From Lentisphaerota bacterium (lineage in GTDB: Bacteria > Verrucomicrobiota > Lentisphaeria > Victivallales > Victivallaceae), in contig SUWH01000018.1 of NCBI GenBank assembly GCA_015061605.1, positions 1-57,261 on the forward strand: 57,261 nucleotides of DNA, written 5' to 3'. Shown here piece after piece: positions 2,800 through 31,610 of this stretch (position 1 is the stretch's first letter; each line of letters opens with the position of its first letter). Below the pieces are notes generated by a model. That model was not told where the DNA came from. It did no database searches and was given only the letters and a program-made list of their open reading frames with translations. Position numbers and translations under genes: made by a program.

Positions 2800-2838
2800 T
2801 TGTTTGTAATTTTTACCCCATAATAGTATATTATGGGG
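2800..2838 (+). promoter_or_regulatory. Promoter overlapping a perfect palindromic operator
   Basis: CCCCATAAT-AGTAT-ATTATGGGG (2816-2838) is a perfect inverted repeat with 9-bp arms. A plausible promoter (-35 TTGTTT at 2800-2805, -10 TAGTAT at 2824-2829, 18-bp spacer) lies across it. The XRE-type gene starts 39 bases downstream, so the simplest reading is autoregulation of the whole defence operon. Confidence 0.6.
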
Positions 2839-2876
2839 AGCTGGGATCTTTATGTGATTTCAAAGGAACTACGATT

Positions 2877-3143
2877 GTGGAGATGCTTTATAAAAAATTG
2901 TGGAAGGTACTGATAGACCGGGATATGACACAGACTGATCTGCGTAAGTCTGCCGGAATCAGCTCGTCCACGCTTGCGTTGATGAACAAGAATCTTCCTG
3001 TCACCACAGCCGTAGTAGAGAAAATCTGCAAAGCACTCCAATGTCAACCAAATGATATTTTTAGTGCCAAAGCACTCCGTTCTTTGAAAACGCGCAAGGT
3101 ATCTGAATACAAGAAACAAACAGTTACCGGGGAGATTATATAA
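2877..3143 (+). CDS. XRE/Cro-family transcriptional regulator
   Basis: 88 aa. GTG at 2877 is preferred because AAGGA lies about 9 bases upstream; ATG at 2883 is the alternative. The helix-turn-helix is easy to see: MTQTDLRKSAGISSSTLALM, then TTAVVEKICKALQCQPNDIF. This is the short Cro/C1 form that follows a strong palindrome in many regulators. Its stop overlaps the next start as TAATG, so regulator and operon are translated together. It probably represses the BREX-like operon through the operator at 2816-2838; defence systems are often controlled this way. Confidence 0.85.
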   Translation: MEMLYKKLWKVLIDRDMTQTDLRKSAGISSSTLALMNKNLPVTTAVVEKICKALQCQPNDIFSAKALRSLKTRKVSEYKKQTVTGEII

Positions 3144-6079
3144 TGGGGATCTTTTCGGTAAAATGCCCGCAGTGCGGAGTCATGCTTGAGGCTGATGAAA
3201 AATATATCGGTGCAAGAGCTGCATGCGCAGAATGTGACTTTCACTTTATCTTGCAAAAAATTGATGAAGAGGTCGTCCCGGTTATTGAGTTGCATCCGAC
3301 CAAATCAGCTGGCTCTGAAATTAGAGAGGAGCAAAAAAAACAAGCCCAACCTTCAACGGAATTCAAAGAATTTAGTTTTATAAATCCTCCTTCAAAACTG
3401 ACCTTTGCAAAGCCTGTTACCCTGATTGTCCCCAGTGGAATAATTGAAGTCAACAGTTGGAATGACATTTTGTGTGCATGTTTTAACTATGCACTAACTC
3501 ATGAAAATGCTGCTGTTTTGAGAACGTTTTTAGACAAAGAGAATAACCTTTTTTCAAAAAGGATGATTTTAAGTTCTTCCGCAGCCAATTTAAGAAGGGC
3601 AAGAGAACTTTCTGAAAATGTGTTTTTGGAGACTAATCTCAGTGCATCTCATATTATTCAGATTGTGTGCGGCTTAATGAAAAACTGCGGTTTCCCTGCT
3701 GAACAGTTCTTTGTACGTTATATTCCCCATGGAACTAATGTTTCGGATTTAAAAAATGAAGAATACAGCATAGATAATCAGCCGGAGACCGAAGTAAGCG
3801 AACCAACGACAGAAAAAATAGTTGCAACATCCCCAATTGAAGTATTCCAATTTTATCCCAATGTGCTTCAAGCATTGAAAAATCAAAATGTCTCGCTTGT
3901 AAAGGACTTATTAGTTGTTCCCGGAAGTAGATTTTCATGTGAACGCAATATCGGCTCCAGCAAAGTGAAAGCAATGCGAGCCCTTGTTAACGCATTAAGA
4001 CCTTATTTGCAGGGCTCCGATACAGAATCAATACCGTTGGAGGCACTCCCGATCGCACCCACATTATCACCGCTAGGCAAGGAAAACTGGGAGGAGATGT
4101 GTTCTGCAGATCAAAAATTTGTCGATACTGAAAAGATAGACAAATCAGATACTTCTACGACAGCTGTTTTTCAGAAAAGAATAGATTGGTCATTGTTGAC
4201 TGCGGGTACTACAATACCTGTTGCTTATTACGATTTATTTTTAAAGAATTTGTCATACGAGCCTCAGCCTGGAGAAGGGCAAGCTGTCGATGTTGTCCTT
4301 GAAGACAAACGGTACTCCGCGCGAGTGATAAAAGTTGCTTTCAGCAGTGGACGGAAACCAGTACTGCAATTACTTTGGGGCAGTAAAAACAGTGGCATCG
4401 TTAAAGTTTTGCAAGCCACATTTGCTCAGATTTATGCTCAACTTTCTGCTGACAGAAAAAATAAAGAAGGGTTGGATCATATTTTCACCTTTTCTCAAGG
4501 TAAGCAGTTGGATGAATTTATCTTGTCTTTGGACAAACCATTGATTGAAGTTTCTGAAACAGACAAAAAAGTTCCGGAAACACGCATAACTTCTATTCAA
4601 ACTGTTGATATAGAAGAACTCAAAGCATTGATTTGTCGTGATTTCAGTAATGGTTTTGTTTTTAACGCCGGAACAATTAAACTTTTGGAAAATAAACTTG
4701 GTCGTGATTGTTCTGAAACGGAGCAAAGAGAACTTAAGCGTATAATGTTCAAGCGATCAGATGATGTTTACTTGCTCCCGGAAATGGTTGCAGAGGATGA
4801 TACCCTTGCTGATATGACAGCCCGCATAAGGGAATATTTTGCGGAATATGGATGTTTTTCTTTGTCTGTCCTTTTCGATGAATTCGGGTATGTTTTGAAG
4901 AATCTGACAAATCCAGACAGTGATTTCAGATTGTTTTTGCTTAAAACTATATTGCCGGATGACGGCAAGATTTTTGGCCGTCTTCAGCGACAAATTTGTA
5001 TTCCGGGCAATATCAGCGAAGAAGAAGTTACACAAACCTTGGCGGAACGCATAAGAGAAATGCTGCAAGGGTATGGTGATGCGGTGTGCATTGACGATCT
5101 GGATAATGAATTGCCATGCCTGAATAAATCTGCACTGGAAATGATCTTGCAAGAGCATATTGCAGATGCCATTGAAATAAAAGTTGATGGATTGAGTTAC
5201 TGGAAGCTTGTAGAGTTTTTCTGTTTGCCGGATGATTTTGCGGAATATTTACAATTGACGGTCAGTTCAATGGAAGAAGCTCAAACTGCCCCATCCTTGC
5301 AAACTCTTTCAGAAGCGATGGAACAACAATATGGCGAAGGATTCCGGGAAATTTATGCCGTAGATGACGATGATGTTTTCAAGCAGATCATCAAAGTATG
5401 TATTGCTGATGACCAGTACAGCTGGAATCGGAATGTATTTGCCAAACAAAACGCAGGACAAGAACTGAATGTTGCAGACGAATTTTTGCAAACTCAGCAA
5501 GGTATTTTCCACGAATCAGAGTTTTTTGATTATGCCAGTACACACAGAGGTCTGACAAATACCGGAATGCTGATTTTGACATTCTTGCGGAATAAATGCA
5601 TTCGCTTGGATCAAACTCATTGGATTTCGTTAAAAGATTTTGATAATTTTTCAAATTTTTCCACGGATATGGCTGAAGCGATTGCTCGTGAACTTGACTT
5701 ACTGCGCGGTTCAAAAGCCTTTTTGCCGCTGGGTACTTTGACTGAAGCATTTTTATCCAACTTACCTGTTTTTACCATAAACGAGCAAGTGTTTTATTGG
5801 AATCACTACTTACTTGCCAGTGTTGCAGCACATAAAATATCAGATGTTCAGATAATAAATGATGAGCCAAGTCCATACACTGTTACTGCAATGACTATTC
5901 CTCAACAGGTAAAAATCCAAGGAGATGTAATCGACTACATTTTTCAGGATTTAAGAAAGACTCATTGCATATTTTCGTCTGCAAACGATGTGTTTGAATA
6001 TTTGCGAACACATCAAGTACGCATGGTAAAGACAAAGAAGCTGTTTGCCAGGATTCGGGATTTTTGGGGTGTTGAATAA
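3143..6079 (+). CDS. Large multidomain protein of unknown function, first large gene of BREX-like operon
   Basis: 978 aa. Domains readable in order: (1) residues 1-40, a zinc ribbon with CPQC and CAEC; (2) about 95-195, a helical domain with the stretch FLETNLSASHIIQIV, which I associate with restriction-type proteins; (3) about 240-290, a helix-hairpin-helix-like segment (CERNIGSSKVKAMRAL) recalling the RNA polymerase alpha C-terminal domain; (4) about 345-470, a probable beta-barrel domain (TIPVAYYDLFL, RYSARVIKVAF); (5) about 500-978, several repeated helical, winged-helix-like units. No nuclease or methyltransferase motif is visible. TAATG overlaps at both ends show tight coupling to the regulator and to brxP. 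It may be the DNA-recognition or effector part of the system; that is inference. Confidence 0.8.
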   Translation: MGIFSVKCPQCGVMLEADEKYIGARAACAECDFHFILQKIDEEVVPVIELHPTKSAGSEIREEQKKQAQPSTEFKEFSFINPPSKLTFAKPVTLIVPSGIIEVNSWNDILCACFNYALTHENAAVLRTFLDKENNLFSKRMILSSSAANLRRARELSENVFLETNLSASHIIQIVCGLMKNCGFPAEQFFVRYIPHGTNVSDLKNEEYSIDNQPETEVSEPTTEKIVATSPIEVFQFYPNVLQALKNQNVSLVKDLLVVPGSRFSCERNIGSSKVKAMRALVNALRPYLQGSDTESIPLEALPIAPTLSPLGKENWEEMCSADQKFVDTEKIDKSDTSTTAVFQKRIDWSLLTAGTTIPVAYYDLFLKNLSYEPQPGEGQAVDVVLEDKRYSARVIKVAFSSGRKPVLQLLWGSKNSGIVKVLQATFAQIYAQLSADRKNKEGLDHIFTFSQGKQLDEFILSLDKPLIEVSETDKKVPETRITSIQTVDIEELKALICRDFSNGFVFNAGTIKLLENKLGRDCSETEQRELKRIMFKRSDDVYLLPEMVAEDDTLADMTARIREYFAEYGCFSLSVLFDEFGYVLKNLTNPDSDFRLFLLKTILPDDGKIFGRLQRQICIPGNISEEEVTQTLAERIREMLQGYGDAVCIDDLDNELPCLNKSALEMILQEHIADAIEIKVDGLSYWKLVEFFCLPDDFAEYLQLTVSSMEEAQTAPSLQTLSEAMEQQYGEGFREIYAVDDDDVFKQIIKVCIADDQYSWNRNVFAKQNAGQELNVADEFLQTQQGIFHESEFFDYASTHRGLTNTGMLILTFLRNKCIRLDQTHWISLKDFDNFSNFSTDMAEAIARELDLLRGSKAFLPLGTLTEAFLSNLPVFTINEQVFYWNHYLLASVAAHKISDVQIINDEPSPYTVTAMTIPQQVKIQGDVIDYIFQDLRKTHCIFSSANDVFEYLRTHQVRMVKTKKLFARIRDFWGVE

Positions 6080-8421
6080 TGTATAGCTACGAATGGGATA
6101 AAAAAACACGCGGATACAAGCTTACCACACAAACTGGGAAATTTGTGGCAAGCGAAGTGCGCCCCGTTTTTGCTCAAGAGTTATTGCTTTTGAAAGCAGA
6201 CGAGTATTTTAACTTTGAGCCAGAAGAACTCAAACCATTGATGTGGGCAAAGCAAAATACTTATTTTTACAATGGAGAAGAATGTGCGAAAGCACAATTC
6301 GATGAGAATAAAAATTTGCATTTAGTTGTAACGGCAGACTTTGATAAGCGTAAATTACAGCCGGTCGATTTACTTGAAATGATTGCCCGCAACAAGAATA
6401 TTATGGATTCTCTTGTTGCGGACACTCTTAAGCGAATCAAAGAGATGTATGATGAATTTCAAAATAAATGTGATGTAACATACATTGGCTTCAGTGGAGG
6501 CAAGGATTCGATGGTACTTCTGGATCTTTGTCATCAAGTGTTGCCGTTGACTGTACCTGTCGTTTTTAGTGATACTGATATGGAACTTCCCGATTCCTAT
6601 GAAACGTGGGCAATGGTTCAGAAACGATATTCAGGCAGACCATTTGTAAAAGTAAACGCTGAAAAATCTGCCATTGAAAACTGGCTGTTATTTGGACCAC
6701 CGTCTCAGAATCTCAGATGGTGTTGTGCAGTACACAAAAGTACACCAGCAATCTTGTATCTCCGTGAACTTGCTCAAAGTGCATCAGCTAAGACTCTGGC
6801 TTTTGTCGGAGTGCGCGCTGATGAAAGTCTGCGTCGTTCTTCGTATGATGACATCGGTGATGGGCTCAAAACACAGAATCAGGTAAATGCGATGCCGATT
6901 CTTTCCTGGGGAACTCATGAGTTATTTTTGTATACATTTGAACGAGATCTCATTATTAATCCAGCTTATCGCAAAGGATTGCCGCGAGTCGGATGTCTGC
7001 TTTGTCCCATGTCCAGTGATCGTCAAGCGTGCATGATCAACGCCTTGTATCCTGATGCAGTTGCACCATTTTCGAATTTGATAAAAGAGTTAATTTCCAG
7101 AGAATTTTCATCAGATGAAGATGCGGAAAACTTTATTCTTACAGGAGGATGGCATGCCCGGCAAAGTGGAGTTTCTTTAAGAGATGTTATTCTTTCTCCG
7201 AGTGAGAAAAAAGGGAAAAACTCTTTGCATTATGATTTTCAACCGATTCCAAAGCAAATGCTGATGGAATGGTTGAAGACTTTAGGCAAAATAGCATATT
7301 CTGAATCTCCACAAACTTTTGAGATTTCAACAGGCAAAGATATTTTCCAAATACAGATTATTGGCAATGATAATGCGATAACTCAAATGGACTGCTCAAT
7401 CAATGACAGCAGAAGTATGAAAAACACTGCAAAATGGTTAAAAAGTTGTTTGTATAAATCATTGGCATGTGTAGGATGTCGAGCTTGTGAAAGTGAATGC
7501 CCGACTGGAGCTTTGAAATTTATTCCGCAAGTAGCTGTTGATGCGGAAAAATGTGTTCATTGCATGAAATGTCATGCAATGCAAGATGGTTGTATGAGAT
7601 ATTTTTCAAGAAGATACGCAGGAGGAACAACTATGAATATTTCCGGCATCAACAAATATATGACTTTCGGCTTAAAACAGGAATGGATTGATGTTTTAGC
7701 GGAAGAAAAAGAAAATTTTCGGTCAACATCTGCATTGGGTAACCGTATGATTCCTTCTGCAGTGACTTGGTTTAGAGAAGCCAAACTTATCTCAGACGCC
7801 ACAGCTATTCAACCAACACGCCTGTTGAGTGTTGCTGAATCTGTGGGGTCTGACTCTGAACTTTTATGGAGTCTTATTTGGATTGCGTTGTCCAACCATT
7901 CCCCTTTAATAAAGTGGTTTGTATGTAACAGTACAATTGGAGAAATGGTTGCTGTAGATGCTTTGAATGAAAAACTTGCAAACCAGGTCAATTCAGAATC
8001 CGTTCGTAAGGGGGCATTGCAATCTCTCTGCGGAACAATAAAAAATTCTCCCATTGGAAATGCCGCTGAGCCATTTGTGGAACTTGAGCAAAAAGGTGTC
8101 AGGGTGCTTGGCTTGAAACGCGTTGCCAAAAGCATTGATCCCATTGCTGTTCTTTATTCTCTTTATCTGATGGCTGGTGTGGCGGACCGCACCTCATTTA
8201 CTTTGAGTGAAATGATGACTGCTGATTTTGATTCACCATACATTTCTCCGCTGGTTGCATTCGGTATGAGCGTCGAAGAACTGAAAGCTCAATGTATGGG
8301 CATTGCTTCAATTTATCCGCAGTATTTGTCATGCACATTTACTTTGGGACTTGATGAAATCAAGGTTTATCCCAATGAAAATTCACTTGATAACATTCTC
8401 GGCTTGATCCTCGGAGAATAA
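6079..8421 (+). CDS. brxP: PAPS-reductase/ferredoxin fusion, BREX type 4 BrxP-like
   Basis: 780 aa. A PP-loop ATP pyrophosphatase motif SGGKDS lies at residues 139-144. It is followed by other PAPS-reductase family features (FSDTDMELP, RWCCAVHKSTP, FVGVRADES, VGCLLCPMS). A ferredoxin-like segment follows: CxxCxxCxxxCP at 464-475 and a second set, Cys 492, 495, 498 and 505, enough for two iron-sulfur clusters. The last 260 residues are an unrecognised helical domain. The PP-loop part resembles DndC, which acts in DNA phosphorothioation. With the cysteine desulfurase at the end of the operon, this suggests activation of DNA or a carrier for sulfur insertion. Start and stop overlap or abut neighbouring genes. 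Confidence 0.85.
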   Translation: MYSYEWDKKTRGYKLTTQTGKFVASEVRPVFAQELLLLKADEYFNFEPEELKPLMWAKQNTYFYNGEECAKAQFDENKNLHLVVTADFDKRKLQPVDLLEMIARNKNIMDSLVADTLKRIKEMYDEFQNKCDVTYIGFSGGKDSMVLLDLCHQVLPLTVPVVFSDTDMELPDSYETWAMVQKRYSGRPFVKVNAEKSAIENWLLFGPPSQNLRWCCAVHKSTPAILYLRELAQSASAKTLAFVGVRADESLRRSSYDDIGDGLKTQNQVNAMPILSWGTHELFLYTFERDLIINPAYRKGLPRVGCLLCPMSSDRQACMINALYPDAVAPFSNLIKELISREFSSDEDAENFILTGGWHARQSGVSLRDVILSPSEKKGKNSLHYDFQPIPKQMLMEWLKTLGKIAYSESPQTFEISTGKDIFQIQIIGNDNAITQMDCSINDSRSMKNTAKWLKSCLYKSLACVGCRACESECPTGALKFIPQVAVDAEKCVHCMKCHAMQDGCMRYFSRRYAGGTTMNISGINKYMTFGLKQEWIDVLAEEKENFRSTSALGNRMIPSAVTWFREAKLISDATAIQPTRLLSVAESVGSDSELLWSLIWIALSNHSPLIKWFVCNSTIGEMVAVDALNEKLANQVNSESVRKGALQSLCGTIKNSPIGNAAEPFVELEQKGVRVLGLKRVAKSIDPIAVLYSLYLMAGVADRTSFTLSEMMTADFDSPYISPLVAFGMSVEELKAQCMGIASIYPQYLSCTFTLGLDEIKVYPNENSLDNILGLILGE

Positions 8422-8437
8422 CACAGGAGTAACGAAA

Positions 8438-11400
8438 ATGCTTTTCTATAAAGACTACTTTAAGATTTCAGAGGATTATGCTCCGTGTATGACTCGGGAA
8501 GCCATCAACCGCGAGCCCAGAACCTGGTTGCAATTTTATCCACACGAAACTTTTGTGACATTGCTCCGCGATTTACTTGCCTGTATGAATGGCGGCAATA
8601 AATCTGTTTGGTTGACCGGTGCTTACGGTACAGGTAAAAGTCACGCCGCTCTTGTATTGCAAAAACTTTTTATGGACGATGCCAGCAGAGTCAATGAATG
8701 GCTTGAACACCGAAAAGAGTTGGTCCCGGAGGCGGTACGTGCCGCATTGAACACATTGCGCAGCAATCGTGTCCTGGCAGTATTTGACACCAAAAGTGAC
8801 GGATTAAAAACTCCGGAACAGTTCCTTGTCCGCATCGAAAACAGTATCATTCAAGCGTTGAAAGATAACAACTATCAAATCCCGGCTTTCGGTTCATTGG
8901 ATAAAATCATTGAACGCATTCGGGAAGAAGAGGGAAACTTTTTCAAAAAACGCGATGAGCTGCAGGGACAATTGAGCATTCTTACCAGCGACATCAAAAC
9001 TGCAGATGCTTTAGAAAAAGCAATCAGCAATCCGGAATTGCAGTCAGCAATGTTGAGCGATGTGATGACGGTCATGCACGCTCGTGATATCTACATCAAT
9101 CTTTCAACCGAAAATCTGTTGAAATGGGTAGATGAAATCCTTGCAGTAAACAACATTTCCAAGTTGCTTTTTATTTGGGATGAGTTTTCATCGTATCTTG
9201 AACAAAATCGCAGTCAGCTTAAAACATTTGAGGAAATAGCAGAATCCTCTCAAGAAGGTAAGTTCTTTTTTATGCCGGTAACGCATATGGGGTTAGAATC
9301 CTATCTGGCAGCAGGTTCTGATAGCATAAAGAGAACTTCCGGCAGATATATATTCAGAAACTTGGATATGCCAACCAATACGGCATTGCTGCTGGCAGCA
9401 GATGCATTCAAGGTTACCAATGCGGAATGGTCTATTGAGCGAGATCAACTGTGGCACGGTATTTCATCTGTTGTTACCAACTATATGGCAACGAAAGATC
9501 AGGAATGTAACGAAAAACCGGAGGCTTTCAAAGGAATTCTGCCCATTCATCCGATGACGGCCTTTGTCCTGAAATTTCTTTCCACCGCTGTCGGTTCAAA
9601 TCAGCGCAGTATGTTCAACTTCCTTAAAGGTGAAGTCGGAGAAAGCGAATTTCAGGATTTTATTGCGCAAAGCGGCCCGGAAGTCAAGGGACGTCAGTAC
9701 CTGACGGTGGATCACCTGTGGCATTATTTTATTGAGCGCAGTGATCTGGGAACCGGCAAAGAAGTCAACGAAGTTCGGATTGAATTTGCGAATAAAGCCA
9801 AAAATTTGAATGACGTAGAAAAGCGTGTTTTCAAAGCAGTTTTGCTTTACAGCTTGCTGGGGCGTTTGACCGGTAATGCCGGACACGAATTGATTCAGCC
9901 GACTCTTTCCAATATTGAGCGCTGTTTTGAGGGCGATGGTGATGTTATCGGCGTTGAAAATATTGCCAATGAATTGATGAAAAAACATTGTTTTTCAATT
10001 ATTAACGGCCGCTGTGAAATGTTCCGTTCTGCCGGGGATTCCGAAGATATTGAAAAACAGAAAGCCAAAATCAATGAGCAATTCAACGAGCAGGTTTTGT
10101 CACCAAAAGTACAACCCAAGCTTGAAAGTGCAGTAAAACGCTTTAAGGATAAACTGCATTTTGAAGTACGCGCAGCTTCTGTAGATAAGGCAATGACCTC
10201 GTGCCAGCGGACGAAAGAGCTTTTCGCCGAAAAATGTGACAAAGGAAAAGGAAATAAAATTCTCTTGCAATTCATTGTTGCAAAAGATGGCGAAGAACAA
10301 CTGCTGGTTGCTGATAAAGCCAAAGAGCTTGCCAAACAATGGCAAGGCTTCCGGATGCTCTTCATTACTTTGCCGGAATTACACTTCTGCACCACAAGTT
10401 TAACCTTTTGGGAAGAATATGTTGACCAGTTGGCACATATTGCCCTTGCTACGGATCAGGCGACCAAAACCAATTACGAAACTCAGATCAAAATGATGGA
10501 TACGATGTGGTTGGGAAAATTGACCAGTCTGTCCCAGAAACTTGTGATTTTCAAGCCTAACAATAATGGCGAACCCTATCAAGAGGAACGGGCTTGGAAC
10601 ACGTTGGAAGATTATTTGAAAAAATATCTTAAAGAGTGTTTTGATTGCTTTATTGATGATCTTTCTGACTACAACTTGAGCGCAATGACTGAAGGCGGAA
10701 AAGGGCTTGCCTCATGGGCAAAGGCCGGTATGGATTTTTCTGCAGCCATCGGTGCATCGCAAAGCATTTGCAAAGCTTTTGAGAAGCGGGGTATAACCGA
10801 TTCACCTGAGTGGTTTGCTCAAAACCCGACACACCCCTTGACTCGTATCCGCGATTACTGCAAAGAGCGTTTGAATAATGCCATCAACGGCTCTACCGGT
10901 CAGTGTTCGATTCGCAAGATTTACATTGATTTGCAGCGTCCGCCTTATGCGATGTTGTCTATTCCTTATACCGCATTTGTCCTCGGTTTTGTGCTGAAAG
11001 AATGGGTGAACAACCCACGGCAACAGTTACAATGGACAAACGGAGCGATGTCTGAAAAATTGGACAATGCGACTTTGGCTGAAATCATTGATGCTGTGGT
11101 TAAGGATGACGGCAGTGGTTCTATAAAAAATGAAAAATATATTTGCCGTATATCCAAGGAAGAGAAGAAGTTTATTGAGTGTGCACCGGTTATGTTCGGC
11201 ATCGAGCATATTCCCAATGCAACTGTAGAAGGGACTCTCGATGCTATTGCAAAACGCTTGGAAAAAATCACCGATAAAGTTCCGCTTTGGGTATTGCCTG
11301 ACTTTATTTATACCCGGGATGATTTGTATGCTGATGCGTGTACGGCAATGATAACAGATCTGTGTGAAGCTCAAAAAATCAGCGCCAAGGGTGATCAGCA

Positions 11401-12619
11401 GGAAAGAAGTGCGCGAATCAAAGCAATCGGAGCTAAATTGCAAGAAACGGATGGACTGGCTGGACATTTTGCGAAGTACATCAAAACAGAGTATTTTGAT
11501 ACAGCTTTTCAAATTCGTGTCAATAAAATAAAACCGGAACTTGCTGCATTGGCGAATGAAGTCGGAGATTATTCCGCAACCTATTGCAAGATTGTCAAAG
11601 AACATTTTGCCAATACGGCATCATGGCTTTGGAACACTCAAAATGTGGATGATGAGCTGGATTTAGTCGAAGCGAAATATAAAATCATTCGTGCTCTTCA
11701 AGGCATTATGGGGTCTAAAGTTTTTATTACTTATGAAGATGCCATTAGTCGAGTACAAAAAGCGATGTTTGCCGACAATAAAGTTTCCATTGAATTGCTG
11801 GCTGGAGATTATCCATTCCTTGCCAGATTTGTACAAGTAATGGATTCCTCAAAAATTGGCGATGGTCTTAAAGATTTAGCGGAAATATTCCAGAGTCAGC
11901 AGAGTGCGCTAAAGGAGTTATTCTTTGATCAAACGCAGAATATTCAGGTTATTACTCTGAAAAAACATTTTGATACTCAATTGGCTGCCCTTGGAGATAC
12001 CGAAATCAAAAAACTCTACGATGGTATGTCTTCTGGAGCCAAACGTACAGCTGATGACTTTAAGAGATCTGCATTGCAGGAAATCAATGAATATCTGAAA
12101 AATTCCACCGTTCAGCAGTTGTTGGCCTTATGGGAACAGAAAACAGGCTATAAAACTCCGGTTGAATGGAGTTTGGCACATAAAATGCCCTCTTATGTTT
12201 TGTTTGACTCAATTGATATTGCTCATGCAATCGTACCTATGGTCAATGATCCCAAGAGTTACCAGGTTGGTGTCTTAAAGACTGCAAAAGACAAGCTTGC
12301 CAAAGCCGAAATACCTGATGCTGCTGAATTTGGGAAGAAGTTCCTTCAGCAGATCCTTCCGCAAAGATATGCGGCACTCAATATCAATGCATCTGATTTA
12401 GGAGATTATTTGTTTAATGTAATTGGCAACAATCCTGACAAATGGGATGGTGCAAAACTCCGAGATGCTATTGAAAAGTTTGTCCGTGATCGTTATACAT
12501 CTGCATATAAGTCCAAAGCCGTGGATAAAGTCAATTCCATGAGCGAAAATGAAGCGAAAAAGCTTCTGCTTAAGTTTGTGGAAAACAATCCTGATGTCGG
12601 TCTTGGGATATTGGAGTGA
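8438..12619 (+). CDS. brxC: BREX large P-loop ATPase, BrxC-like
   Basis: 1393 aa. Walker A GAYGTGKS at residues 61-68 and Walker B LLFIWDEF with D248-E249, after an N-terminus (YKDYFKISEDYAPCMTREAI) of the type seen in BrxC/PglY proteins. The rest is long, mostly helical and charged, as expected for this family of very large ATPases. It follows brxP by 16 bases with an AGGAG site and overlaps the pglZ region, so it is in the same transcript. The exact action of BrxC is not settled; family knowledge supports a role in a DNA-bound complex with PglZ. Confidence 0.85.
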   Translation: MLFYKDYFKISEDYAPCMTREAINREPRTWLQFYPHETFVTLLRDLLACMNGGNKSVWLTGAYGTGKSHAALVLQKLFMDDASRVNEWLEHRKELVPEAVRAALNTLRSNRVLAVFDTKSDGLKTPEQFLVRIENSIIQALKDNNYQIPAFGSLDKIIERIREEEGNFFKKRDELQGQLSILTSDIKTADALEKAISNPELQSAMLSDVMTVMHARDIYINLSTENLLKWVDEILAVNNISKLLFIWDEFSSYLEQNRSQLKTFEEIAESSQEGKFFFMPVTHMGLESYLAAGSDSIKRTSGRYIFRNLDMPTNTALLLAADAFKVTNAEWSIERDQLWHGISSVVTNYMATKDQECNEKPEAFKGILPIHPMTAFVLKFLSTAVGSNQRSMFNFLKGEVGESEFQDFIAQSGPEVKGRQYLTVDHLWHYFIERSDLGTGKEVNEVRIEFANKAKNLNDVEKRVFKAVLLYSLLGRLTGNAGHELIQPTLSNIERCFEGDGDVIGVENIANELMKKHCFSIINGRCEMFRSAGDSEDIEKQKAKINEQFNEQVLSPKVQPKLESAVKRFKDKLHFEVRAASVDKAMTSCQRTKELFAEKCDKGKGNKILLQFIVAKDGEEQLLVADKAKELAKQWQGFRMLFITLPELHFCTTSLTFWEEYVDQLAHIALATDQATKTNYETQIKMMDTMWLGKLTSLSQKLVIFKPNNNGEPYQEERAWNTLEDYLKKYLKECFDCFIDDLSDYNLSAMTEGGKGLASWAKAGMDFSAAIGASQSICKAFEKRGITDSPEWFAQNPTHPLTRIRDYCKERLNNAINGSTGQCSIRKIYIDLQRPPYAMLSIPYTAFVLGFVLKEWVNNPRQQLQWTNGAMSEKLDNATLAEIIDAVVKDDGSGSIKNEKYICRISKEEKKFIECAPVMFGIEHIPNATVEGTLDAIAKRLEKITDKVPLWVLPDFIYTRDDLYADACTAMITDLCEAQKISAKGDQQERSARIKAIGAKLQETDGLAGHFAKYIKTEYFDTAFQIRVNKIKPELAALANEVGDYSATYCKIVKEHFANTASWLWNTQNVDDELDLVEAKYKIIRALQGIMGSKVFITYEDAISRVQKAMFADNKVSIELLAGDYPFLARFVQVMDSSKIGDGLKDLAEIFQSQQSALKELFFDQTQNIQVITLKKHFDTQLAALGDTEIKKLYDGMSSGAKRTADDFKRSALQEINEYLKNSTVQQLLALWEQKTGYKTPVEWSLAHKMPSYVLFDSIDIAHAIVPMVNDPKSYQVGVLKTAKDKLAKAEIPDAAEFGKKFLQQILPQRYAALNINASDLGDYLFNVIGNNPDKWDGAKLRDAIEKFVRDRYTSAYKSKAVDKVNSMSENEAKKLLLKFVENNPDVGLGILE

Positions 12620-12624
12620 CAGTT

Positions 12625-14736
12625 ATGCAAATCAATGACTTTTGCCAACGATTTTCACGGGAAGAGGGATTTCGCAAATCCCGGCTTCTGTTCATTCCAA
12701 ATGAACAGGATCGAACTGATGTACGAAGTTTCTTTAATAACTGTACTCTGATTAAAAAAGTCAGAATCAGCGATTGCATCACAGGCAACGATTTTTTGCC
12801 AGCACCTCAAAAACTGTTTTGGGATTTACGACAAAGAATTGAAGAAGCTAATGCCAAAAGACTCTTTGCGGTGGTAGAAGGATTTGATGCTATAAAAAAA
12901 CTTTGGTCTGCTGAAAATATCAATTCTGCGTATGCCAATATACGCAACTTATTGGACAATGTTAATTTGCATTTTGTTATACTTACAAACACCTATAATG
13001 AAATAGCAGAGATGACTTTTCAGCATCCGCGATACAAAGAGGGACAAATCGTACTGAGAATTGGAGAAAATACAAGTACCGATGAGGTTCAGCGCAAAAT
13101 TTATTTGATTGCCAGCCCCTTGCCATTTATACCGATTGCCGGAGTCCACAGGCAGTCATTGCAAGCTTTTTTACATGATTGCGAAGATGAATCATTACCG
13201 GATGGAAATGTTAATGTTTCCATAAATTCAAAGGGAGGAGAATTAGCCGGATTTTCCCCCGATGTGGAACAAATTTATTCAAAAAAGCGTTTTCTGCAGG
13301 TGTTCTGTAATTTGCAGCACAATTTATCTGATTTTGCGATTGATTGGTTATATGCAAAAGTGTTTGAGCAAAATGAACCGGTAAATGTTTTGGCATTAGC
13401 CCAGAAATATTTCTTCCCGGCAGGAATAAACAGTCACAATACAATTCAGGAAGCACCTCTCAAAATACGTTCAGCGGAGGCTGCCGAACAGGAGGTATTA
13501 TTGTGGATGTTGCGTTTATCCTTGAGTCAGAACTCTTACTTGGCGTATGTGTTAAATAATCCAGATTTTATTCCAGAACATTTCACAAGTTTTTATGTAT
13601 GCGAAGCATTGAATCATTTGAAAGATGCTCAAGTCGAAAAATTATCAGCCGAACGTAAAAATGGTTTGGAAACAATCGGCTTTGATTTGCTTTCCGGAGA
13701 GTTTGCAACATTCATCAAACAAACAAAAGATTTTCCTGTCGATCAAGTCGCTCCGTGGCTTAACTGTCAGACGCTTATGGAAAAGCATGAGTTGGTTCGC
13801 AGGATAGCTGAAATGGAAGCATGGGAAATCCCATCTTGTATTTTCAAATCTTATCCCCTGCTTGCCAATTATGTAAAACCATATCAACTCGGATTTATTG
13901 AGTTAAATAGTTATTTCACAGAATATCGTCAGCAAAAACTCAAAAATTATGTCAAAGAAGATTTTTGTGAAAAAACAAAAAATATTGATATTGAGATGAA
14001 AGGCATCGCTCATAGAGATTCTCTTTTGACTACTTATGCCTGCGATAAAGATACTGCATTGCTGATCGTAGATGCATTGGGTGCAGAATATATGCCATTG
14101 TTGTTGGCGTTGGCTGCCGAGCGCTCTTTAGGAATTGAAACAGCAGCAGTTGCCCAAGCGAAATTACCCACATCTACAGAATTTAATTCCATAAATTGGC
14201 CTGCAGAACGTAGATTACCAGAAGTAAAAGCTCTGGATCATATCATTCATAACGGTGCGGAATACCACATGACAAAACCTGTGGAGGAAAATTTCGTTGC
14301 TTTGCTTGATGTTTTTGAAACAAAAATTCTCACAGAAGTTGCAAAAGCAATGACTGTTTACACTCGCGTAATATTGACTTCTGACCATGGGGCAACGCGA
14401 TTGGCAGTCTGTGCTTATCAGCAAGGAATGGCAAAAACATTGACTATGCCGGAAATATCTTCTCCGGATGATTGGCGATACACATCAGCTATCAAAGGCA
14501 AAACACCTTGTCCTGATTTGTTGGAAAATCTTTCCGGAGATTTCTGGATGGTTAAAGGGTACAATAGATTTTCTAAAAAAGGCGGAAAACTCCATGAAAT
14601 GCACGGTGGAGCTACATATGAAGAAATACTGGTTCCTTTTATTGTCTTTAAACAGGGGGCTGTCTTTGTGCCGCAAGCCCAACAAACACAGGATACCAAT
14701 GTTGAATTTATCGAAAATGATGACTTTGATTTGTGA
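12625..14736 (+). CDS. pglZ: BREX alkaline-phosphatase-superfamily protein PglZ
   Basis: 703 aa. I chose ATG at 12625 because GGAG lies 8 bases before it; GTG at 12616 would overlap the brxC stop but has its site too close. The C-terminal PglZ domain shows the metal-site motifs: LLIVDALGAEYMP with D483, and LTSDHGATR with D587-H588, then KLHEMHGGATYEEILVP near the end. The N-terminal 400 residues are helical and poorly conserved, as usual. PglZ is the marker protein of BREX systems. Eight bases separate it from brxL. Confidence 0.9.
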   Translation: MQINDFCQRFSREEGFRKSRLLFIPNEQDRTDVRSFFNNCTLIKKVRISDCITGNDFLPAPQKLFWDLRQRIEEANAKRLFAVVEGFDAIKKLWSAENINSAYANIRNLLDNVNLHFVILTNTYNEIAEMTFQHPRYKEGQIVLRIGENTSTDEVQRKIYLIASPLPFIPIAGVHRQSLQAFLHDCEDESLPDGNVNVSINSKGGELAGFSPDVEQIYSKKRFLQVFCNLQHNLSDFAIDWLYAKVFEQNEPVNVLALAQKYFFPAGINSHNTIQEAPLKIRSAEAAEQEVLLWMLRLSLSQNSYLAYVLNNPDFIPEHFTSFYVCEALNHLKDAQVEKLSAERKNGLETIGFDLLSGEFATFIKQTKDFPVDQVAPWLNCQTLMEKHELVRRIAEMEAWEIPSCIFKSYPLLANYVKPYQLGFIELNSYFTEYRQQKLKNYVKEDFCEKTKNIDIEMKGIAHRDSLLTTYACDKDTALLIVDALGAEYMPLLLALAAERSLGIETAAVAQAKLPTSTEFNSINWPAERRLPEVKALDHIIHNGAEYHMTKPVEENFVALLDVFETKILTEVAKAMTVYTRVILTSDHGATRLAVCAYQQGMAKTLTMPEISSPDDWRYTSAIKGKTPCPDLLENLSGDFWMVKGYNRFSKKGGKLHEMHGGATYEEILVPFIVFKQGAVFVPQAQQTQDTNVEFIENDDFDL

Positions 14737-14744
14737 GGTGATTT

Positions 14745-16211
14745 ATGCTTGATGAAAACAAACTCAAGGAAGCATTCCCCAATACAACAGTTTTTAAGGA
14801 TCAAAATTTAATTGCGACTTTTAAGGCAGCTTCAATTCCTGCATTTTTACGAGATTGGATTCTGAAGAAAAAGGCTGGCGTGGACGGTCGCATTCATGAT
14901 AAAGACGAGCTTCGGCAATATATGAATGCGATTATTCCACGTCGTGAGGATGTTTTGGAAATTAAAGATTCTGCTAGAGCCACAGGTGCTAGCAAAAAGT
15001 TTTTGGCAAGAATAGACATACGCTTTAATGTTGCAGACAATCATGTTTCATTTGAAATTCCTGATCTTGGGATAACGCATTCTGAAACAATTGTTGAAGA
15101 TTATATTTGGGAAAGAATAAAGGATGAAATTGTAAAAACTTCCGGCGGTTGGGGGCTTGTTCAGCTGGGGTATTTGCCTCCGGAAAAACCAGAGCGTCCC
15201 AAAGGAAAACTTTCCTTATTGGAATACAAAAATTTCTGTCCTTATACCGTAAATTTAGATGCGTTTAGAAATGCCAGAAAGAATTTTACCATAGAAGAAT
15301 GGTTGGATGTTTTACTTGGAGCAATTGACTATAACCCGGAAGGATATAACGACTGGGTAGAAAAACATACAATGCTTACCCGCTTGCTGCCATTTATTGA
15401 ACCAAGAATAAATCTTGTGGAACTTGCGCCCAAAGGTACAGGAAAATCCTATCTTTTTGGGCGTGTCGGCAAGTATGGATGGCTGGTCAGTGGAGGTACT
15501 CTCAGCAGAGCAAAAATGTTCTATGATATTGCTAGAAAACAACCTGGACTTGTTGCTACAAATGAATTTGTTGCTCTTGATGAAATTCAGTCTATTGAGT
15601 TCCCCGATCCGAGCGAAATGCAAGGTGCATTAAAGGCGTATATGGAGTCTGGCGAAGCAACTTTTGGAGACAAACGAGTAATTGGCACAGCTGGTGTTAT
15701 TTTATTGGGCAATATTCCTCAAGATGATATGGATATTTCACGGAATATGTTTATTTCTTTGCCTTCTGTGTTTCATGAGTCTGCATTGTTGGATCGCTTT
15801 CATGGATTCATTCAAGGACGCAATATCCCTCGAATGAATGAAAAACTTAAAATAAATGCATGGGCTTTGAATACTGAATATTTTTCTGAAATAATGCATC
15901 TTATGCGAAGTCAATCAGAATGTTTACTTTACAGAAGTGTTGTGGAAGATTTAATCGAATATCCTGCTGGAGCAGATACTCGTGATACAGAAGCTATTTT
16001 GCGTGTTTGTACAGCATATCTTAAGCTGTTCTTCCCGCATGTAACCAGTGCTGAAATGATAGATATTTCGGAATTTAAGCGTTATTGTTTGCGCCCTGCA
16101 GTTCAAATGCGAACCATTATACGTAATCAGCTGCAAATTATTGACCCCAAGGAGTATGGGGGAAAAAACGTTGCTGTTTACAGTGTAAAGGAACGCTATG
16201 AAACAGCGTGA
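14745..16211 (+). CDS. brxL: BREX Lon-like AAA protein BrxL (short form)
   Basis: 488 aa with a GAGGTG ribosome binding site. The AAA P-loop is APKGTGKS (K234, S235) and the Walker B region is FVALDEIQSIEFPDP near residue 282. The N-terminal half (KLKEAFPNTTVFKDQNL, then WGLVQLGYLPPE) matches the BrxL type. It is shorter than the roughly 680 residues of type 1 BrxL because the C-terminal Lon-protease-like domain appears to be missing: the protein ends soon after the AAA lid. BrxL of type 1 systems forms DNA-binding rings; the same is likely here. Confidence 0.85.
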   Translation: MLDENKLKEAFPNTTVFKDQNLIATFKAASIPAFLRDWILKKKAGVDGRIHDKDELRQYMNAIIPRREDVLEIKDSARATGASKKFLARIDIRFNVADNHVSFEIPDLGITHSETIVEDYIWERIKDEIVKTSGGWGLVQLGYLPPEKPERPKGKLSLLEYKNFCPYTVNLDAFRNARKNFTIEEWLDVLLGAIDYNPEGYNDWVEKHTMLTRLLPFIEPRINLVELAPKGTGKSYLFGRVGKYGWLVSGGTLSRAKMFYDIARKQPGLVATNEFVALDEIQSIEFPDPSEMQGALKAYMESGEATFGDKRVIGTAGVILLGNIPQDDMDISRNMFISLPSVFHESALLDRFHGFIQGRNIPRMNEKLKINAWALNTEYFSEIMHLMRSQSECLLYRSVVEDLIEYPAGADTRDTEAILRVCTAYLKLFFPHVTSAEMIDISEFKRYCLRPAVQMRTIIRNQLQIIDPKEYGGKNVAVYSVKERYETA

Positions 16212-16225
16212 TTCGGGAGAATACA

Positions 16226-16438
16226 ATGGCTGCTAAAAACGAAAAAAAATGCCGCTATTGCGAAATTACATTAGACCGTAATGCAATTGGCTTAAATAAA
16301 AAACTGTTTGAAGATGATGCAAAGCGAAATCTCTATATGTGTTTCCCGTGCATGGCTGAATATCTGGAATGCTCGGAAGATGATTTGAGAGAAAAAGTCG
16401 AAGAGTTCAAACGAGAAGGATGCAAACTGTTTTCATGA
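16226..16438 (+). CDS. 70-aa zinc-finger-like protein in BREX operon
   Basis: The ATG at 16226 has GGGAG 8 bases upstream. The protein has two CxxC knuckles (CRYC near residue 9 and CFPC near 40) about 30 residues apart, followed by a charged helix (EDDLREKVEEFKREG). This looks like a small zinc-ribbon adaptor. It sits between brxL and the cysteine desulfurase and overlaps the latter by 4 bases (ATGA), so it is almost certainly a system component. It might be a sulfur carrier or scaffold using its Cys residues, but I have no family match. Confidence 0.7.
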   Translation: MAAKNEKKCRYCEITLDRNAIGLNKKLFEDDAKRNLYMCFPCMAEYLECSEDDLREKVEEFKREGCKLFS

Positions 16439-17595
16439 GCACACGAAATCCGATTTACGCAGATAACGCAGCGACAACGCAGCTTGATCCGGCTGCGCTG
16501 GATGCTATGTTGCCTTTTTTGCGGGATTCGTATGGTAACCCATCAAGTTTATATTCTTTCAGCCGGTCAGCAAAGAAAGCCTTGCAAGAAGCACGCAACA
16601 CAATTGCAGAATGTATTGGCGCACTACCCGAAGAAATCATTTTTACCAGTGGTGGATCTGAAAGTGATAATTGGGCAATAAAGAACTTTGCATTTGCTAC
16701 TCCACAGAACAAACGGCAGATATTGACTACTCCTATTGAGCATCACGCTATCCTTAACAGTTGTGCAGAAGCGGTCAGATTGTTCGGTTGTTCGACTGGC
16801 TGTGTTGCCGTAGATAAGTTTGGGACAATTGATATTGATGATTTCCGGGCAAAACTGTCAGAAAATACTGCCGGAGTATCGATTATGCTTGCCAATAATG
16901 AGGTTGGAACAATACAAGACATTAAAACTTTGGCGGCAATTGCTCATGAACACAACATCCTGTTTCACACCGATGCAGTCCAAGCTATAGGACATATTCC
17001 GGTAAATGTACAAGAACTGGGGGTAGATATGCTTTCTGCATCAGCACACAAGTTCAATGGGCCCAAAGGTATCGGCTTCCTTTTGGCGAAGCGAGGTACT
17101 TCGTTGGTTAGTTTTGTCAATGGCGGACAACAAGAGTTTGCCCGCAGAGCCGGAACAGAGAATGTAGCCTCTATTGTTGGAATGGCAACAGCTTTGAAAA
17201 ATAATTGCTCGCAGATGCATGAAAATACCTTGAAGCTCCAGAAAATGGAAACGCTTTTTAAAGAAATTATTTCAGAAAGCATTTCCAATGTCGTGTTCAA
17301 CGGTGACCCGGTAAACCATTTGCCTGGTCTCATAAGTTTATCAATTCCCGGAGCTTCAGGCGAGAGCCTTTTGCATATTTTGGACCTGAAAGGCATTGCT
17401 GTTTCAACTGGAGCAGCGTGCAATTCAAAAGATACAGAGATATCCCATGTTTTGAAGGCGATGAATCATCCTGAAGATTTGGCAAAAGGGACTTTACGGG
17501 TTTCTTTTGGGAAATATAATACTCTTGAAGATGCAGAAAAAATGGCCGATGCAATAATTCAATGTATCAGGAAAGTCAAGATAAGGAAAAATTGA
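16435..17595 (+). CDS. Cysteine desulfurase (IscS/NifS/DndA class)
   Basis: 386 aa from the ATGA overlap at 16435; an in-frame ATG at 16420 is possible. PLP-enzyme landmarks are complete: IYADNAATTQLDP at the start, HTDAVQ, SASAHKFNGPKG with PLP lysine K206, and STGAACNS with catalytic C329. It transfers sulfur from cysteine to an acceptor as a protein persulfide. In Dnd systems the equivalent enzyme, DndA, feeds DNA phosphorothioation. Being last in the brxP-brxC-pglZ-brxL cluster, it is the obvious sulfur donor for BrxP. A housekeeping role in iron-sulfur assembly is the alternative but fits the context less well. Confidence 0.9.
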   Translation: MSTRNPIYADNAATTQLDPAALDAMLPFLRDSYGNPSSLYSFSRSAKKALQEARNTIAECIGALPEEIIFTSGGSESDNWAIKNFAFATPQNKRQILTTPIEHHAILNSCAEAVRLFGCSTGCVAVDKFGTIDIDDFRAKLSENTAGVSIMLANNEVGTIQDIKTLAAIAHEHNILFHTDAVQAIGHIPVNVQELGVDMLSASAHKFNGPKGIGFLLAKRGTSLVSFVNGGQQEFARRAGTENVASIVGMATALKNNCSQMHENTLKLQKMETLFKEIISESISNVVFNGDPVNHLPGLISLSIPGASGESLLHILDLKGIAVSTGAACNSKDTEISHVLKAMNHPEDLAKGTLRVSFGKYNTLEDAEKMADAIIQCIRKVKIRKN

Positions 17596-17600
17596 AAATA

Positions 17601-17657
17601 GCAAGTTTTGCAAAATGGCCAATGCAACTTGCAAAGTAGGACAGAATGGTTTATATT
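17601..17657 (+). promoter_or_regulatory. Promoter with inverted-repeat operator ahead of hipA-like gene
   Basis: TTGCAA (17629-17634) and TATATT (17652-17657) are separated by exactly 17 bases. GCAAGTT (17601-17607) and AACTTGC (17626-17632) form an inverted repeat whose right arm overlaps the -35 box. The site implies that the HipA-like gene is expressed separately from the BREX-like operon and can be repressed. Confidence 0.55.
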
Positions 17658-17688
17658 ACGGAACAGGGTAACGCTTTTAGAGGATGAT

Positions 17689-18819
17689 ATGACTTATACG
17701 CTGAAAATTTATGATACTGAACTGATGACTTTTGAGTTGACTCAAAAGCCGTTGGAGGGTTTTTGCTGCCAAATTGTCAGCGTTAATGAAGAAAACAAGC
17801 ATCTTCTGCCGCTGGGTATGACCGTTGACGGCGATGGAGTTCTCTCCTGGCTCAAGTCCAGAGTCATTCCTCAAAACCGGGAGTTTGTGGATAAGATACT
17901 TTCCGTTTATGGACTTACCCACAACAATATTCCCGGCATTATTCAGCTTTGCAAGGGGCTTTCTCTTAATGACAGCTACTGGATCACCGAACCGGATTTT
18001 AAGGGAAAGTTTGCGGATTACAACCTCTTTGAGAACAGTTTTTATAAGGCATTATCGCTAATCGCTTATACCGGATATGGTAGTGTGAAGCCCAGCGGAT
18101 TTTCTTCATCGCCGGAGTTTACCACCAATGGAATGCTCCGCAAGGGATGGCGCAGAATTGACGGTAAAATCAAGCTGTACAAAGGCGGGACTTCAGGTGC
18201 TGCCAATACCGGCAACGAGCCTTATTCAGAATTTTACGCTGCACAGATTGCAGACGCGATGGGGCTTGACCATGTTCCTTACACACTTTCCAAGAGGAAA
18301 GGCAGCCTTTGCTGCGTGTGCGAACTCTTTACCGATATTGACCACTCCTTTGTTCCCATGTGGCGGTTCTGCAAGACCAAGAGCATCAAAGAGGTCGCCG
18401 AATATCTGCGTAATCTGGGCGAAAATTATTTCAATGCGTTCTGCGATATGATGATCTTTGATGCGTTGATTTACAACACCGACCGGCATTTGAACAACTT
18501 CGGTTTGATGGTAGACAACAAAAACAATCAGCCTTACGCTTTTGCTCCGATTTTTGACAACGGGCTGTCGCTCTTCAACTTCGCCATGGCAGATGATTTT
18601 GCCGACCTTGAAACTTACGCAAAGAGCCGTTTGTCGGCGTTTGACGTGCCTTTCGATGAGATTGTCAAGGAATTCATTACCTTGCGCCAGAAGGGGCAAT
18701 TACGCTGTTTACAGGCGTTCAAATTCACTCGTCACAGCCGTTACAATCTTCCTGCTGCAAGACTGAAAGCCTTGGAGCAATTCATACAGAAGCGTGCAAG
18801 GCAACTGCTCGAATGGTAA
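17689..18819 (+). CDS. HipA-like Ser/Thr kinase domain protein
   Basis: 376 aa. The ATG at 17689 is preferred because GAGG lies 6 bases upstream. The catalytic loop reads NTDRHLNNFG (D265) and the metal-binding motif IFDNGLSLF (D290), the HipA/PI3K-like kinase pattern. A probable ATP-binding lysine lies in KIKLYKGGTS. The N-terminal 120 residues differ from E. coli HipA and no HipB-like antitoxin is adjacent. It lies between the desulfurase and the MGMT-domain gene, 12 bases before the latter. HipA kinases phosphorylate tRNA synthetases or other targets; the target here is unknown. It may be a stand-alone toxin or signalling kinase carried in the defence island. Confidence 0.8.
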   Translation: MTYTLKIYDTELMTFELTQKPLEGFCCQIVSVNEENKHLLPLGMTVDGDGVLSWLKSRVIPQNREFVDKILSVYGLTHNNIPGIIQLCKGLSLNDSYWITEPDFKGKFADYNLFENSFYKALSLIAYTGYGSVKPSGFSSSPEFTTNGMLRKGWRRIDGKIKLYKGGTSGAANTGNEPYSEFYAAQIADAMGLDHVPYTLSKRKGSLCCVCELFTDIDHSFVPMWRFCKTKSIKEVAEYLRNLGENYFNAFCDMMIFDALIYNTDRHLNNFGLMVDNKNNQPYAFAPIFDNGLSLFNFAMADDFADLETYAKSRLSAFDVPFDEIVKEFITLRQKGQLRCLQAFKFTRHSRYNLPAARLKALEQFIQKRARQLLEW

Positions 18820-18831
18820 TTTGCGAACATT

Positions 18832-19140
18832 ATGAGTAGTCTGAAAGAAAAAGTGTATGAATTTGTGAAGAATATTCCTCGGGGAAAAGTTGCAACCTAT
18901 GGGCAAATTGCTTTGTTTTTGGGAAATCGGAACTTTGCCCGAGTAGTGGGGAATATTCTTCATAACAATCCTGATCCGGAGCATATTCCCTGTCATCGGG
19001 TGGTCAATGCTCAAGGGCAGCTTTCCCGATCATATGCGTTTGGGGGCGTTGAGGCTCAAAGACGTCTGTTGGAATCCGAAGGCGTTGTGTTCAAAAATGA
19101 GCAGATTGTCGATTTGAGTGTATCTCAAATGGCATGGTAA
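18832..19140 (+). CDS. MGMT-family DNA alkyltransferase domain protein
   Basis: 102 aa, about the size of the C-terminal domain of O6-methylguanine-DNA methyltransferase alone. It has RGKVATYGQIA, the recognition-helix region RVVGNILHNNP, and the active-site PCHR with C54. Because the cysteine is present, it differs from many alkyltransferase-like (ATL) proteins that have Trp there. It could repair alkylated bases or act as a sensor of modified DNA. It follows the HipA-like gene by 12 bases without an obvious ribosome binding site, suggesting coupling. Confidence 0.85.
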   Translation: MSSLKEKVYEFVKNIPRGKVATYGQIALFLGNRNFARVVGNILHNNPDPEHIPCHRVVNAQGQLSRSYAFGGVEAQRRLLESEGVVFKNEQIVDLSVSQMAW

Positions 19141-31385: not shown

Positions 31386-31420
31386 TTATACTAAAAAAAT
31401 TTTTGCTCCATACCCAAAAT

Positions 31421-31610
31421 ATCACCGGTGTAGGTAATTCCTACACCGGTGAAACAAAGATTATTCATAATGCTTTTATTTGCAATGTGTTGTAAAAAAC
31501 ATCACCGGTGTAGGTAATTCCTACACCGGTAAAATAAAGATTATTCGTAATGCTTTTATTTGCAATGTGTTGTAAAAAACATCACCGGTCTAACTATTAG
31601 TTACACCGGC
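31421..31610. repeat. 80-bp tandem repeats each with a large palindrome
   Basis: Two nearly identical 80-bp units (31421-31500, 31501-31580) and the start of a third. Each begins with an inverted repeat with 12-bp arms CACCGGTGTAGG/CCTACACCGGTG around TAATT; the second copy loses the final G. The third (31585-31609) is a degenerate version. The remainder of each unit is AT-rich. The array occupies the gap between tail gene T and the RHH-BRO cassette. Operators, or a site of condensation or packaging, are possible. Confidence 0.85.

Follow-up and report, generated by a model that had tools for sequence, protein, structure and literature searches.

The 57,261 nt contig SUWH01000018.1 of a Lentisphaerota bacterium, in the following called the window, carries on its plus strand an operon of eight genes (2877-17595), which we analysed as a bacteriophage exclusion (BREX) system of type 4. 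The operon starts with a Cro/C1-type helix–turn–helix regulator of 88 amino acids (2877..3143; Pfam HTH_26, 2.7e-18) followed by a protein of 978 amino acids (3143..6079), the member of a family encoded upstream of brxP, for which AlphaFold models tandem winged helices and DNA binding is predicted. The next gene codes for BrxP (6079..8421), a PP-loop sulfurtransferase with a ferredoxin-type 4Fe-4S part and a C-terminal DUF4007-like DNA-binding part (PADLOC BrxP, 854 bits; PAPS_reduct, 2.4e-26). Then follow the AAA+ ATPase BrxC with 1393 amino acids (8438..12619; PADLOC BrxC, 1336 bits over the full length), a type 4 PglZ with 706 amino acids (12616..14736; NCBIfam BREX_PglZ_4, NF033445, 189.1 bits at a cut-off of 140) and the AAA+ ATPase BrxL in its short form with 488 amino acids (14745..16211; TIGR02688, 385.3 bits at a cut-off of 329.3; Pfam BrxL_ATPase, 6.1e-108). 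The operon ends with a small zinc protein of 76 amino acids, named by its cysteine pairs (16208..16438; CxxC..CxxC and a C-terminal GCxLF; an ATG start at 16226 is also possible), and a NifS/DndA-like cysteine desulfurase (16420..17595, likely start 16435; Aminotran_5, 3.1e-83; PADLOC DndA, 428 bits). Six of the eight genes are named by family models of Pfam, PADLOC and NCBIfam with scores far above chance, and the gene content from regulator to desulfurase is the one given in a preliminary description of this DNA.

The same description had almost all genes joined by overlaps of 1–4 bases, which applies to five of the seven junctions at best. According to the sequence the regulator gene overlaps the gene of the 978-residue protein by one base, as does the latter gene brxP. 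Overlaps of four bases are found between brxC and pglZ (with a GTG start of pglZ; an alternative ATG lies nine bases on), between brxL and the zinc protein gene (GTG start) and between the zinc protein gene and the desulfurase gene (when its second ATG at 16435 is used). There are gaps rather than overlaps between brxP and brxC (16 nt) and between pglZ and brxL (8 nt). BrxL is short as described, having 488 residues, yet it is not truncated and aligns end to end with the PADLOC model of 482 positions. A promoter-like site upstream of the operon (2804-2832) is a weak match at nine of 12 positions, 47 such sites being found in the scanned stretch vs 37.0 (standard deviation 6.3) in its shuffles.

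With BrxP, BrxC, a type 4 PglZ and BrxL present in the order brxP-brxC-pglZ-brxL, the locus is by every defining gene tested a complete type 4 BREX (brxPCZL), and the layout proposed before is borne out. In the literature brxPCZL is counted as one of three gene families making phosphorothioates (PMC11931770), and type 4 BREX is stated to make DNA phosphorothioates with reference to Yuan et al., 10.1101/2024.06.03.597175 (PMC12839542 section 34; PMC11931770). PMC12707154 agrees on brxPCZL and phosphorothioates, and PMC10853773 and PMC11437467 served as background only. The link between type 4 BREX and phosphorothioates is therefore in print (PMC11931770, PMC12839542), and the proposal that self DNA is marked by phosphorothioation is supported by these published statements. 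Most likely the operon marks DNA with sulfur in its host. The proposal of sulfur marking is right, yet it was already published, and so was the pairing of desulfurase and zinc-finger gene: according to section 34 of PMC12839542, 255 of 457 type 4 taxa have a desulfurase, which is often accompanied by a small zinc-finger gene.

A methyltransferase had been reported missing, and there is indeed none in the operon among the matches to Pfam, PADLOC and NCBIfam. The remainder of the genome, which is 88.7% complete, holds no BREX type 1 PglX above the cut-off (a methyltransferase-like frame reaches 26 bits vs the cut-off of 500); other methyltransferases were not searched for, and one unrelated to BREX is possible.

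For a comparative analysis we took the best 80 of 404 brxP loci in genome_contigs by BrxP similarity, which together with the window and locus L039 gave 82 loci. Matches to the helix–turn–helix regulator occur at five of the 80 other loci. The PADLOC match of the window's BrxP covers residues 1-777. In an alignment of 62 of the 82 BrxP proteins (A5) the PP-loop motif SGGKDS is invariant except for G140, which is nearly so, and 12 cysteines, eight of them of the ferredoxin type, are kept. In PglZ the residues D486, T521, D590, H591 and H663, presumably the metal site as in the alkaline-phosphatase fold, are present in all 66 aligned sequences. Judged from these alignments the catalytic set of BrxP and PglZ looks intact.

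The central part of BrxP behaves differently. We formed all pairs of the 82 BrxP proteins with at least 80% identity in residues 1-295, which resulted in 93 pairs from 11 clusters, and defined as swap pairs those in which residues 311-675 (7009..8103, plus strand) are at least 20 points less identical than both flanks. This was the case for 36 of the 93 BrxP pairs vs none of 38 BrxC pairs, none of 67 BrxL pairs and none of the PglZ pairs, of which there were only six; the windows in these three proteins were set in proportion and not tuned. The flanks are equally conserved in the 36 swap pairs and in 30 uniform pairs (86% and 83-84%). The centre, divided into residues 311-400, 400-508 and 515-675, is 53, 61 and 44% identical in the swap pairs and 85, 79 and 84% in the uniform pairs. 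The right border is sharp and lies at about residue 680. On the nucleotide level the brxP genes of L056 and L061 are 90-99% identical in codons 1-300, 41-73% in codons 301-690 and 86-99% in codons 691-794. In L085 and L103 identity drops in two parts, at about 331-390 and 511-660, with residues 391-510 kept at 73-87%.

The clearest case is the comparison of L056/L057 with L059/L061. The BrxP centre differs between these two pairs, with the core of the upstream protein being 92-94% and BrxL 98-99% identical. BrxC has an allele split of its own that is discordant with the BrxP split and spread along the whole gene (95% identity between L057 and L061, 72-73% between L059 and both of them). Phylogenetic trees gave a conflicting signal in this first cluster: the quartet forming one clade has a p value of 0.295 for the N part and 0.109 for the C part in the approximately unbiased (AU) test and is rejected for the centre (2e-41). 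In the trees of the centre L056/L057 group with Spirochaetota sequences and L059/L061 with sequences from Lachnospiraceae and Heliophilum. For three other groups the chosen pair is likewise rejected by the centre (AU p 1.3e-4, 2.4e-9 and 1.5e-4) and is compatible with the N part (p 0.263 and 0.287, the third pair being already a branch with support 78/79). The conflict was thus found in four of four groups tested, with clades picked after the identities had been seen; the test of the C part was confined to the first group.

Restriction specificity subunits evolve by exchange of their recognition parts. Going by identities, break points and trees the BrxP centre is likewise exchanged as a cassette between systems. 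Because restriction specificity subunits have variable recognition parts between conserved parts (PMC12707154), we suggest that the cassette is the target-recognition region of BrxP and that the choice of the DNA sites to be marked probably lies with it. One could also see in the locus an ordinary type 4 BREX, in which the centre of BrxP is simply fast-evolving and the gene upstream codes for a passenger or for a transcription regulator. All core genes are known after all, and the centre is the more variable part in old BrxP pairs, too. Fast evolution, however, fails to explain why 30 pairs are uniform and 36 are swap pairs at equal flanks, and it leaves the nucleotide break points and the conflicting trees without explanation, so that we regard this view as unlikely.

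Several points have to be held against a site-reading cassette. The swap pairs are not independent of each other, as they are confined to four of the 11 clusters. DUF4007 is detected by Pfam in only 13 of the 62 BrxP members and the window's BrxP is without a match at E 0.01. It is also possible that the cassette swap is driven by phage inhibitors in an arms race instead of by the choice of sites. The comparative results as a whole are limited by the choice of loci, the best 80 of 404 by BrxP similarity.

The second informative part of the locus is the 978-residue protein, which the preliminary description had listed without a role. The family surfaced only after the brxP loci had been gathered first. 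It has no significant match in Pfam or NCBIfam (E 0.01) and no sequence match in the PDB, and no close relatives were found by peptide patterns in genome_contigs and viral_contigs or by tblastn in plasmids. Matches of its N-terminus in genomes of the same genus or order (five of 60, the window's own included) amount to short stretches of zinc ribbon and were disregarded, and single Pfam matches among 72 aligned pieces (23 families, best E 0.003) were too weak to name domains. In each of the family alignments A2 and A3 we combined the window with 71 of the 80 loci from genome_contigs, leaving out partial, frame-broken, weak and contig-edge members and in A2 also one near-identical member.

With iterated profiles 80 of the 82 loci were found to have a member of the family upstream of brxP. 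All 84 family open reading frames (ORFs) in these loci, among 9,698 ORFs searched, lie upstream of brxP on the same strand, 73 of them within 80 nt. When the nearest member per locus is considered (n=80), 25 overlap or abut brxP and a further 31 are within 20 nt. This is unlike a passenger and argues against the ordinary type 4 BREX discussed above, to which the upstream protein lends some weight in another respect, since some of its relatives bear modules known from transcription proteins. The family consists of two branches, which were joined with no shared rows (33 vs 44) by hhalign with a probability of 98.1 and E 1.3e-13 over 246 columns (C part: probability 96.0, E 4e-9). A search with the A3 profile in 42 of the 80 source genomes gave a match in 40, those of L087 and L111 being the misses; the profile itself contains rows from 39 of these 42 loci. 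The member of L040 is found only by the iterated core profile and missed by the A3 profile. A member also stands directly upstream of brxP at L177 and at L178, two loci that were not part of the sample; the one of L178 has over 2,600 amino acids, nine N modules and an open end at the contig edge. In the phylum six of 387 genomes match the A3 profile, strongly those of the window, L039 and L145 and weakly G012, G109 and G295. At L048 a gene for a protein of 547 amino acids with a RecG-type HATPase_c_4 domain (8358-9998) stands between the upstream protein and brxP.

The association has its exceptions, which count against the upstream protein as a constant part of the system. The loci without a member are L097, where the sequence upstream of brxP is just 166 nt long, and L087, which has none despite 10 kb of upstream sequence and whose whole genome lacks a match to the A3 profile. 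In the genome of L039, which has two brxP copies, the first copy (L038) also has upstream sequence and no member. L107 was counted only through a tail of 38 residues at a contig edge, and L111 was detected by the iterated profile alone and missed by the A3 profile. Relatives also occur in other surroundings: the one of L145 (11740-14481) adjoins type I restriction genes (HsdR by Pfam) with no BREX gene in 20 kb, the one of L179 (7785-9503) sits between a BREX locus and an HsdR which is 72% identical to that of L145, and the one of L180 has no recognised defence neighbour.

According to AlphaFold the 978-residue protein consists of about six tandem winged helices, each unit having the three helices and the beta hairpin of this fold (a look at the model with VIA-align yielded a list that tests residues 623-695 alone). 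The conserved winged-helix array comprises residues 493-968 (4619..6046). Preceding it are a zinc-ribbon-like N-terminus (residues 1-50, 3143..3292; sub-threshold Zn_ribbon_RPB9, E 0.02, low model confidence), an N module which is repeated in some other members (residues 83-195, 3389..3727; profile matches at 28 loci, window included), a segment that is possibly similar to the C-terminal domain of the RNA polymerase alpha subunit (alpha-CTD; residues 216-300, 3788..4042; residues 206-297 match PADLOC PglW weakly, E 0.0023) and a middle module common to two other loci, L078 and L104 (residues 340-447, 4160..4483), all on the plus strand. The relative at L100 has an RNA_pol_A_CTD match with 4.9e-16, and among eight longer relatives some carry RNA_pol_A_CTD, Sigma70_r4 or a HARE-HTH below the cut-off. 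From the model the protein is predicted to be DNA-binding.

Such a protein could itself set the DNA site in a role like that of HsdS, in place of BrxP. It is the fastest-evolving of the five genes compared, its extensions are without detectable similarity between some systems with 73-75% identical BrxP, and a DNA-binding fold is predicted. The comparison of L056/L057 with L059/L061 speaks against this, since there the BrxP centre changes and the upstream core stays 92-94% identical. Moreover, at L145 and L179 relatives adjoin type I restriction genes, and there the site should be set already by an HsdS-like gene (a name given by eye only). As the clearest case shows no movement with the BrxP cassette, the upstream protein is, on the sequence comparison, probably not the site-specificity subunit, and we give the HsdS-like role a somewhat smaller chance than the ordinary type 4 BREX.

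Downstream of brxL the zinc protein is more regular than the desulfurase. Of the 67 loci with at least 400 nt of sequence beyond brxL, 64 have it, whereas a single-pass search found the desulfurase in 26 of the 44 loci reaching 2,000 nt past brxL, and 18 of the 44 are without a linked one. In 67 copies of the zinc protein four of the cysteines in the two CxxC pairs and GCxLF are conserved to 100% and one to 99%; all five are invariant in 38 aligned sequences. Our guess, because of the linkage and the fifth cysteine, is that the protein could be a sulfur relay. On the other side stands the occurrence of the family outside BREX, with members in 10 of 387 genomes of the phylum; in seven of the 10, none of the window's BREX genes is matched in the roughly 1.5 kb to either side. 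We therefore rejected the idea of a BREX-specific protein. Three “phage” records with the zinc protein were likewise not accepted as viral evidence; the two inspected are unannotated faecal scaffolds, one of them with BREX genes. The desulfurase lies below the NCBIfam equivalog cut-offs for NifS and DndA. That it is a dedicated sulfur donor, as had been proposed, is something we infer and do not put more strongly, because a further NifS/IscS-like gene (42% identity) exists in the genome and because of the 18 loci lacking a linked desulfurase.

Taking the phosphorothioate chemistry from print, we infer the roles in the sulfur path, in site reading and in sensing as follows. The desulfurase would draw sulfur from cysteine and the small zinc protein may hand it on to BrxP, which would insert it into DNA as phosphorothioate. 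The PP-loop of BrxP may activate the backbone phosphate by adenylation, as is the case in its enzyme class, and the iron–sulfur part may handle electrons or sulfur. The centre (residues 311-675, extending into the DUF4007-like part) would read the DNA site, with BrxC as a ring ATPase positioning BrxP on the DNA. The 978-residue protein, whose translation would be coupled to that of BrxP, could act as a DNA-binding subunit with tandem winged helices; it might scan or sense DNA and link its recognition with BrxC, PglZ and BrxL. The nuclease-type PglZ and BrxL would then stop unmarked phage DNA.

As a whole, a type 4 BREX with sulfur marking, site reading by the BrxP centre and an upstream winged-helix subunit is in our opinion quite probably the best explanation of the locus. 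A more far-reaching version, which we put forward tentatively and at somewhat less than even chances, combines three statements: that the BrxP cassette (residues 311-675) sets the marking site and travels from phylum to phylum in the way restriction enzymes exchange their recognition domains, that the systems depend on a fast-evolving winged-helix sensor upstream, which some type I restriction loci have as well, and that the zinc protein with its GCxLF cysteine relays sulfur into BrxP irrespective of the desulfurase in use. BrxP might also modify another target, a nucleotide or a tRNA, or serve sulfate metabolism with no DNA thiolation at all, given that PP-loop proteins are functionally diverse and that BrxP is weakly similar to assimilatory reductases. 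The full-length BrxP match, the linkage to brxC, pglZ and brxL and the phosphorothioates published for type 4 make this highly improbable.

The operon lies in a stretch of lower G+C content, after which comes a prophage reaching the transfer-messenger RNA (tmRNA) gene. Upstream, at 967-1762, there are two adjacent AIG2/gamma-glutamylcyclotransferase-like genes. Directly after the desulfurase follows a HipA-like gene (17608-18819; Pfam HipA_C, 7.3e-10), which is present in none of the 80 other brxP loci and was rejected as a member of the system. Further downstream are a gene with an MGMT-like DNA-binding domain (18832-19137) and a SocA/Panacea-type antitoxin gene (19735-20310). The prophage (21737-56692, with a provisional left end) adjoins the tmRNA gene (56657-57012, minus strand), contains a large serine recombinase (55106-56692) and codes for capsid/protease, portal, terminase, tape measure, a RecD-like helicase and a ParB-like protein. 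At 31416-31575 it has an 80-nt tandem duplication, 95% identical, with a palindrome around ACCGGTGTAGG.

Two things go beyond the known kind of system and deserve following up, the BrxP cassette and the family of upstream proteins with tandem winged helices. In literature searches, which covered titles, the starts of abstracts and some sections, without Yuan et al. and without figure 8D or the supplementary material of PMC12839542, there was no sign of the upstream gene or of a BrxP recognition cassette. Through the comparison with 80 relatives the site choice of a phosphorothioate BREX becomes an exchange experiment with defined borders. Furthermore, a near-constant upstream partner gene would be omitted if brxPCZL were rebuilt from the four named genes.

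Among the known systems Dnd (DndABCDE) has in common with the operon the PP-loop core and a NifS-like desulfurase close to DndA. However, BrxP scores 23.6 bits against the DndC equivalog (cut-off 290.4) and the desulfurase 312 bits against the DndA equivalog TIGR03235 (cut-off 480), so that the PADLOC DndA score means similarity only; one PADLOC model for DndC had no match in the genome. The C-terminal half of PglW from BREX type 2 resembles the 978-residue protein in having an alpha-CTD-like helical domain followed by winged helices (section 23 of PMC12839542). The local match between the two is weak (E 0.0023 over 92 residues) and does not establish homology, and with no NERD or kinase domain match in Pfam the protein does not qualify as a PglW. 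HsdS of type I restriction systems is like the centre of BrxP in having variable parts between conserved parts (PMC12707154), which for an unrelated protein is an evolutionary analogy only. With Ssp (SspABCD) the PP-loop transferase, the ATPase and the DUF4007/SspB part are homologous (PMC12839542 section 34). PADLOC finds SspD (1.6e-15) and SspC (4.8e-20) in the window as partial matches only, and in contrast to Ssp the window has PglZ, BrxL and the DNA-binding part fused to the transferase. From BREX type 4 the locus differs in the 978-residue protein upstream of brxP, which is not among the components in section 34 of PMC12839542, in the extra modules of the window's copy of this protein and in the HipA-like gene downstream. 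It shares with type 4 the four defining genes, their order, the PglZ subtype and the lack of a methyltransferase, as well as the desulfurase and zinc-finger gene described in the same section.

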